Assembly: GCA_000996025.1 (NCBI GenBank)
Contig: LBYF01000010.1
Span: 1-33,220 of the forward strand
Reading direction: 5' to 3'
Length of the DNA: 33,220 nucleotides
Origin: Parcubacteria group bacterium GW2011_GWA2_40_14
Lineage (GTDB): Bacteria; Patescibacteriota; Minisyncoccia; Phycocordibacterales; DATDWN01
Within the stretch, counting starts at the first letter, position 1. Each line of letters starts with the position of its first letter. The notes beneath the pieces are model-generated. The model had not been told where the DNA came from. It saw only the letters and a program-made list of their open reading frames with translations, and made no database searches. Of the stretch, positions 3,123 to 27,212 are shown piece after piece. Both the position numbers and the translations under genes were made by a program.

Positions 3123-3228
3123 GGATAACTAAATACCTGTCCCTTAGTAGCATACGTTACAATCCTGCTATAGCAGGATTGTAACGTATGTGAACAATTA
3201 TGTTGCTAAGAAATAGGTGTGGATAAGT
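3123..3228. repeat. palindromic element, family A copy 1
   Basis: Perfect 40-bp palindrome CATACGTTACAATCCTGCTATAGCAGGATTGTAACGTATG (3151-3190), with flanks GGATAACT (3123-3130) and TGTGGATAAGT (right end). Confidence 0.9.
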
Positions 3229-18855: not shown

Positions 18856-18901
18856 AAAATTAGACATGATCTTTGCGATCGCAAAGATCATGTCTAATTT
18901 T
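18856..18901. repeat. 46-bp perfect palindrome
   Basis: AAAATTAGACATGATCTTTGCGATCGCAAAGATCATGTCTAATTTT, perfect with no spacer. Confidence 0.95.
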
Positions 18902-18939: not shown

Positions 18940-18987
18940 ATCACATACATTATTTTTGTACTATAGTACAAAAATAATGTATGTGAT
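18940..18987. repeat. 48-bp perfect palindrome, divergent family A copy 4
   Basis: ATCACATACATTATTTTTGTACTATAGTACAAAAATAATGTATGTGAT; same framework CACATACnTTA...CTATAG...TAAnGTATGTG and same arm length as family A. Confidence 0.85.
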
Positions 18988-20894: not shown

Positions 20895-21238
20895 TGTGGA
20901 AAAGTGCACATCTATCCATTAGCAACATACGTTAGAATCCTGCTATAGCAGGATTCTAACGTATGTGAGTAAAATTATGTTATTGCCGACGTAGAGCGAG
21001 GAAGCGAGAAAGTACTCTTTCTCATTTCCGAGCCGAGGTGAGAAGCGAAGCTTCGCAAGACCTTGAACATTTTGTATTCAAAATGTGAAAGGTGTACTGC
21101 CTCTGTAAGAGGAGCAAAATAAGGGATTAAAATACCGCACGGCTTGCCGTGCCATGCCGTGAGAAGCGAACACGCTTTGGGTGCAGAGCTTGCCCTGCAG
21201 CATAATACCTTTTATTAAGGAATAGGTGTGGAAAAGTG
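20895..21238. repeat. palindromic element, family A copy 2, with a nested insertion
   Basis: Perfect 42-bp palindrome 20925-20966; the right arm is continuous with copy 3 up to ...ATTATGTTATT and resumes at TTATTAAGGAATAGGTGTGG (21212 on); outer direct repeats TGTGGAAAAGTG at 20895-20906 and 21227-21238. Confidence 0.85.
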
Positions 21239-23663: not shown

Positions 23664-23708
23664 ATGTTTGAATTGTATATTTGGCGCATTTCGTTGTTGG
23701 ACTTCAGT

Positions 23709-23754
23709 AAAATAATTGTTAACGTACAACAACGAGTACGTCTCCAATTATTTT
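23709..23754. promoter_or_regulatory. stem-loop/operator-like inverted repeat upstream of typA
   Basis: AAAATAATTG-tta-ACGTAC-aacaacga-GTACGT-ctc-CAATTATTTT: 16 paired positions with a symmetrical internal loop. Confidence 0.6.
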
Positions 23755-23985
23755 CTTCGTCCGCCTAGAACTGCATCCAAATATCCAATTCAAATGGATG
23801 CGATTCAAGATAATTCATTTAAAAACCGGCCGAAGCCGGCAGTTCAGTCTTTCAATTAAAGCATGGAATGGGTATTTAAGTCAATGAATTTGGGTAATAC
23901 AGTAATACACAGATGACCATGGTGTTCTTCATGAATCGGTATATAATTAACATTGTTACTAATTTAATATATTAATGATTTTAAT

Positions 23986-27008: not shown

Positions 27009-27115
27009 GATAACTCAACATCTATTCCTTAATAACATAATTTTACTCACATACGTTAGAATCCTGCTATAGCAGGATTCTAACGTATGCTGTTAAAGGA
27101 TAGGTGTTGATAACT
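27009..27115. repeat. palindromic element, family A copy 3 (opposite orientation to copy 2)
   Basis: Perfect 40-bp palindrome CATACGTTAGAATCCTGCTATAGCAGGATTCTAACGTATG (27050-27089); outer direct repeats GATAACT at 27009-27015 and 27109-27115. Confidence 0.9.
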
Positions 27116-27212
27116 TTCCTTGAACAATGTCAATAAAAATTTTATAATAAGTCAGTAATTATTGTATAACTATAAATTGTAAAAATATGAAAATTTTTTT
27201 CTGGCAAGTTTT

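Follow-up and report, generated by a model that had tools for sequence, protein, structure and literature searches.

The perfect 48-bp palindrome at positions 18940-18987 of the window (the whole stretch of 33,220 nucleotides analysed here, which is contig C10 of the 637,511-base, 26-contig host genome, G000, with relatives in Candidatus Zambryskibacteria) is probably a non-autonomous solo copy of the palindrome that borders a small mobile element in which a Cas2-fold protein takes the place of a Y1 transposase. The main point, a link to a gene, was not visible to the first-pass annotation, which was made from the letters of the window: palindromes of this kind flank genes for PaaX_M/Cas2-like proteins, and the scattered ones read as copies of the borders of these genes. 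Together, the dispersed palindromes and the Cas2-like genes suggest that a type of small mobile DNA not reported before is spread across Patescibacteria; the genomes compared are draft genomes from metagenomes.

The following features of the window are relevant here (a dot within a motif marks the centre of a palindrome):

18940..18987, no strand: A-family perfect zero-spacer palindrome with 24-nt arms; core 18944-18983, sub-type CATACATTATTTTTGTACTA·TAG...
18856..18901, no strand: second-family perfect zero-spacer palindrome, centre GCGA·TCGC, 14 bp past the stop of the preceding gene
3129..3227, plus strand: extended A unit around the palindrome 3151-3190; limits approximate
20907..20984, plus strand: extended A unit around the palindrome 20925-20966, right part shortened; limits approximate
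27009..27116, minus strand: extended A unit around the palindrome 27050-27089; limits approximate

The two arms of the palindrome at 18940-18987 abut without a spacer and are fully paired; the symmetry had been read correctly in the first-pass annotation, as had the length of each half (22 nt, CACATAC to centre), and compared with the family A copy CACATACGTTAGAATCCTGCTA exactly 7 of the 22 arm positions are changed, each change being matched in the opposite arm. The likeness also claimed there between the left flank AAATCTAT and ACATCTAT of copy 2 is due to chance: the A copies at 3170, 20945 and 27069 have a common extended unit of ~95 bp, found at six unlinked sites of G000 with unrelated flanks, which is missing at 18940-18987, so that the resemblance is not meaningful and flank homology with copy 2 was rejected. 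The identical 40-bp core recurs in the same genome at G000:C7:19595-19634, where a truncated Cas2-like ORF has its 5′ end 14 bp away; the 3′ part of this ORF is missing, with the break exactly at another palindrome. The GCGA·TCGC family, to which the neighbouring palindrome belongs, has six further sites in G000. No known RNA family was matched in an Rfam scan of the window. A dispersed repeat of ~100-130 bp was noted at 23679-23782 of the window and at G000:C8:7461-7593, with copies in related genomes too; one copy sits in frame within ksgA (amino acids 93-136 of the G000 protein).

In G000, 76 zero-spacer palindromes with a score of at least 13 were found by a whole-genome script; two dinucleotide-Markov random genomes of equal size contained no zero-spacer palindrome scoring above 11, a comparison which excludes a chance origin of the palindrome at 18940-18987. 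Sorted by their centres, the palindromes fall into GCTA·TAGC (22), GATA·TATC (13), GCGA·TCGC (7), GCAT·ATGC (7), AGTA·TACT (6), and smaller groups. To the E- and F-type palindromes of this genome no gene has been assigned, which counts against the mobile-element reading; E-type palindromes lying in genes were checked as insertions, and the ortholog of one of these genes has equal length. GATA-centred palindromes were seen within long ORFs (G000:C18:6241, C14:25178, C13:2515, C13:20344, and C7:17020), two of them encoding LYDISYS in frame, one of these in a UvrC-like gene. Solo half-sites, considered as marks of a larger transposon, turned out to be chance or degenerate matches only. Long palindromes are destroyed by SbcCD in E. 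coli; no gene for an SbcD C-terminal domain was found in the whole G000 genome, and its absence may help long palindromes to persist there.

When one genome per GTDB species was scanned for exact matches to the A pattern (CATACRYYW-N7-RCTATAGY-N7-WRRYGTATG), 35 contigs were hit, and those with a name more specific than “bacterium” are, with one exception, all from Patescibacteria (Zambryski-, Taylor-, Kaiser-, Niyogi-, and Adlerbacteria, and relatives). The exception is filed as Elusimicrobia (locus L082, MGVS01000068.1, a 121-kb contig); judged by its sequence, which matches the window with 98.9% identity over 890 bp around position 3170, it is probably a misbinned Zambryskibacteria contig. 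Viral contigs gave zero matches to the A pattern, and a viral origin of the A palindromes was discarded on this ground. Among 62 distinct 44-bp A elements, both members of a pair are changed for 17 of the 22 pairs; double-changed cells number 290, whereas shuffled data give 92.6 and sliding the register by 1 to 3 leaves 39-67. As the pattern by which this set was chosen fixes both ends and centre, only the pairing of the middle is unbiased in it: middle positions are paired in 77-93% of the A elements versus 34-45% expected. The proposal of the first-pass annotation, fixed ends and centre around a drifting but paired middle, is borne out, also in other genera, but the middle is not “always” paired, and some Kaiserbacteria copies pair at only 3-7 of 11 positions. 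The centre itself changes symmetrically, from GCTA·TAGC to GCAC·GTGC in G007; since a hairpin leaves the four central bases unpaired, yet these are self-complementary, the symmetry of the duplex matters besides the pairing of the arms. Hybrid palindromes, with arms from different sub-families, were observed in G007 (C2:2327, C14:4893, C21:16602, C29:5745, and C38:17483) and look as if arms were exchangeable at the centre.

When the neighbour genes of 70 A elements were clustered, a single family dominated, with 17 entries from unrelated loci; it comprises proteins of ~190 amino acids with an N-terminal winged helix followed by a PaaX_M/Cas2-like domain. All seven such genes of G000 have palindromes, some of them degenerate, on both sides, which are of type A (contigs C4, C8, C6, and C7), GCAT (C1), GCGA (C17), and AACGA/AGCGG (C14). 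For the tests described below, Cas2-like genes were fetched by protein score alone, ignoring palindromes, and the tests (order, phylum, 75 genes) are free of the selection bias of the A pattern. Within the order, 23 of 29 genes have a zero-spacer palindrome, 15 of them on both sides, compared with 6.6% of random 200-bp windows; within the phylum, the figure is 18 of 28 genes, with 68 sides at spacer 0 versus 1-3 at odd spacers. In the set of 75 genes, 57 have a zero-spacer palindrome at most 150 bp away (5′ in 43, 3′ in 51, both in 37), and the control search at spacers 1, 3, and 5 returned 5-6 and 1-2; the 18 genes with no detectable palindrome count against the mobile-element reading. The palindrome arms to the left and right of a gene share 14.6 of 18 positions within one locus and 8.2 between different loci, and protein identity correlates with arm identity (Mantel rho 0.33, 0 of 2000 permutations). 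The sequence of the palindrome tracks the relatedness of the proteins, and each protein sub-family has its own palindrome.

The domain PF20803 (PaaX_M) is matched by the protein with E 1e-21, while winged-helix Pfam models match weakly. The PaaX equivalog model TIGR02277 scores 38-43 bits, far under its cut-off of 264.55, and Cas2 models are borderline (TIGR01573, 23.1 and 27.4 bits with a cut-off of 24.5; PF09827, 20.9 with a cut-off of 23.8). Comparison of an AlphaFold model (mean pLDDT 86, pTM 0.67) with the PDB gave E. coli PaaX as the nearest fold (8a39; E 5.6e-5), then several Cas2 structures. An aspartate that closes the first strand of the Cas2 domain (D115, in FDIPE) is invariant in 52 of 52 sequences; a Cas2-type aspartate is absent at the aligned place of the PaaX structures 8a39 and 3kfw. 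The winged helix, the retained aspartate, and a symmetric site are consistent with a dimeric, sequence-specific palindrome nuclease. Shorter Cas2-like proteins (127-129 amino acids) without a winged helix were seen at loci L221 and L229, one of which is adjoined by a GCCA·TGGC palindrome with 10-bp arms.

Cas2-like genes are present in 120 of 297 genomes of the order and in 122 of 380 of the phylum, with a patchy distribution and up to 11 copies. Among the 12 genomes of the genus, all five with A palindromes carry the genes, and the six gene-free genomes have no A palindromes; the twelfth, G002, has Cas2-like genes with a different palindrome. In 100-kb samples of three gene-free genomes, ordinary AT-flanked hairpins only were found. 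In G000, G003, and G005, uvrD and ksgA are separated by a palindrome-gene-palindrome unit; in G001, G002, G004, G006, G010, and G011 this site is empty, uvrD and ksgA directly adjoining each other. At the uvrD-ksgA site, the differences between the palindromes of the three species fall on paired positions, which shows paired drift at one and the same place; the unit looks inherited within the genus, and movement may therefore be rare. Many palindromes of G000 are missing at the matching place in G007.

The full element would comprise a palindrome, one gene of ~190 codons (winged helix plus Cas2-like PaaX_M), and a second palindrome, ~650-800 bp in total. A symmetric dimer of the encoded protein might bind two abutting half-sites of ~20 bp, recognising CATAC... 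at the outer end and GCTA·TAGC at the centre, and might nick or cut at the palindrome by means of the conserved aspartate; repair or replication would then place copies of the palindrome, or of the entire unit, at other sites, a route that may be likened to the supposed spread of REPs by RAYT transposases. The paired drift of the middle could arise because a hairpin or cruciform has to form, or because one arm is copied onto the other during repair. That the Cas2-fold winged-helix protein is itself the palindrome-moving enzyme of a class of mobile elements, recognising and copying fully symmetric palindromes in about a third of the sampled Patescibacteria genomes, is a serious possibility which we put forward tentatively; as its nearest solved relative is the repressor PaaX and the 5′ palindrome may overlap a -10-like TATAAT, the binding could be regulatory.

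Like REP elements and their RAYT transposases (PMC2817692, PMC3116915, PMC3733652), the system has a gene between its own short palindromes and many solo extragenic copies, the palindrome sequence follows the protein, and complementary changes preserve pairing, as they do in REPs (PMC2817692); here, too, the repeats on either side of the gene also occur dispersed, with 37 genes bracketed on both sides and 76 palindromes in G000. The bracketed gene, however, encodes a PF20803 winged-helix/Cas2-like protein and not a Y1 HUH enzyme, and while REPs have a GT(A/G)G head and an unpaired middle, A palindromes are symmetric with spacer 0, odd spacers being at background. With PaaX (PaaX_M, PF20803; 8a39, 3kfw) the protein shares the order of winged helix and Cas2-like domain and the best fold match, but it is short, falls under the equivalog cut-off, keeps the Cas2-type aspartate, and its gene has palindromes on both sides. 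Fold, aspartate closing the first strand, and a Q.SV motif are those of CRISPR Cas2, in contrast to the extra winged helix and the borderline scores with Cas2 models; as to genomic setting, the three fully read units sit between uvrD and ksgA. MITEs, casposons, and small DNA transposons are comparable in the small unit, the inverted ends, and the non-autonomous copies, and the occupied (three) and empty (six) uvrD-ksgA sites resemble those of IS/MITE transposons; yet each end here is a complete palindrome, the unit is without a DDE, HUH, or Cas1 enzyme, and no direct repeat indicating a target-site duplication was seen at the flanks read, where the relatives, only ~74% identical in DNA, are too diverged for exact junctions. 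Casposons, too, tie a Cas-fold protein to mobility.

The main rival to a mobile element views the proteins as repressors of the PaaX type and the palindromes as their operators, for autoregulation at the gene and for a regulon elsewhere. Winged helix and PaaX_M, with PaaX as the nearest solved structure, a dyad symmetry that suits a dimer, and a 5′ palindrome that can overlap a TATAAT-like box all agree with this. It is nevertheless unlikely, since the 3′ palindrome is at least as frequent as the 5′ one (51 versus 43 of 75), convergent gene pairs have an excess of A elements between them (18 of 62 compared with 16% of intergenic bases, p = 0.008), with no enrichment of the 62 elements in divergent intergenic regions, and the neighbour genes share no regulon beyond the Cas2-like family itself; moreover, the amplified ~95-bp units are left unexplained, and the invariant Cas2-type aspartate, absent from the aligned PaaX structures, is not required in a repressor. 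Terminators acting in both directions, or RNA-processing hairpins, would be selected for pairing, which suits the paired drift of the arms and the frequent position of GCGA-type copies directly after stop codons, but not the self-complementarity of the four central bases, which a hairpin cannot pair. GC-rich, T-tailed terminators are already found beside the palindromes, copies exist between divergent genes, and the link to a single protein family would have no explanation; opposed by the symmetry of the centre and by the gene context, a simple terminator reading is improbable.

Least credible is that the A palindromes were moved by Y1 (RAYT-like) transposases of G000. Three Y1_Tnp genes are present (G000:C5:3864, C5:20300, and C6:10031; loci L172, L177, and L185), and RAYTs are the presumed movers of palindromic REPs (PMC2817692). 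However, the Y1 genes have flanking hairpins of their own, with 1- or 3-nt loops, and presence is not correlated: G003 has A palindromes without a Y1 (PF01797) gene, and G004 and G010 carry Y1 genes without A palindromes, so a Y1/RAYT origin was rejected. Short hairpins with 3-nt loops lie beside each of the three Y1 genes, on both sides at L185; genes and hairpins are a separate REP-type system in G000.

A link of PaaX or Cas2-like proteins with dispersed palindromes was not found in the open-access literature searched; what appears to be new is that a Cas2-like family is coupled to dispersed palindromes of its own, the working mode resembling that of REP/RAYT. So far, Cas2 has been known mainly for working with Cas1 in CRISPR adaptation, and PaaX for repressing transcription. 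If the winged-helix protein is itself the moving enzyme, a Cas2-like protein would be active in DNA mobility outside of CRISPR and without Cas1. A Cas2-like family with its own palindromes in a phylum of minimal bacteria would extend the list of folds tied to mobile DNA, would offer a lead on the possible ties of Cas2-like proteins to DNA mobility outside CRISPR, and would account for repeats and for “Cas2/PaaX” annotations in genomes of Patescibacteria.
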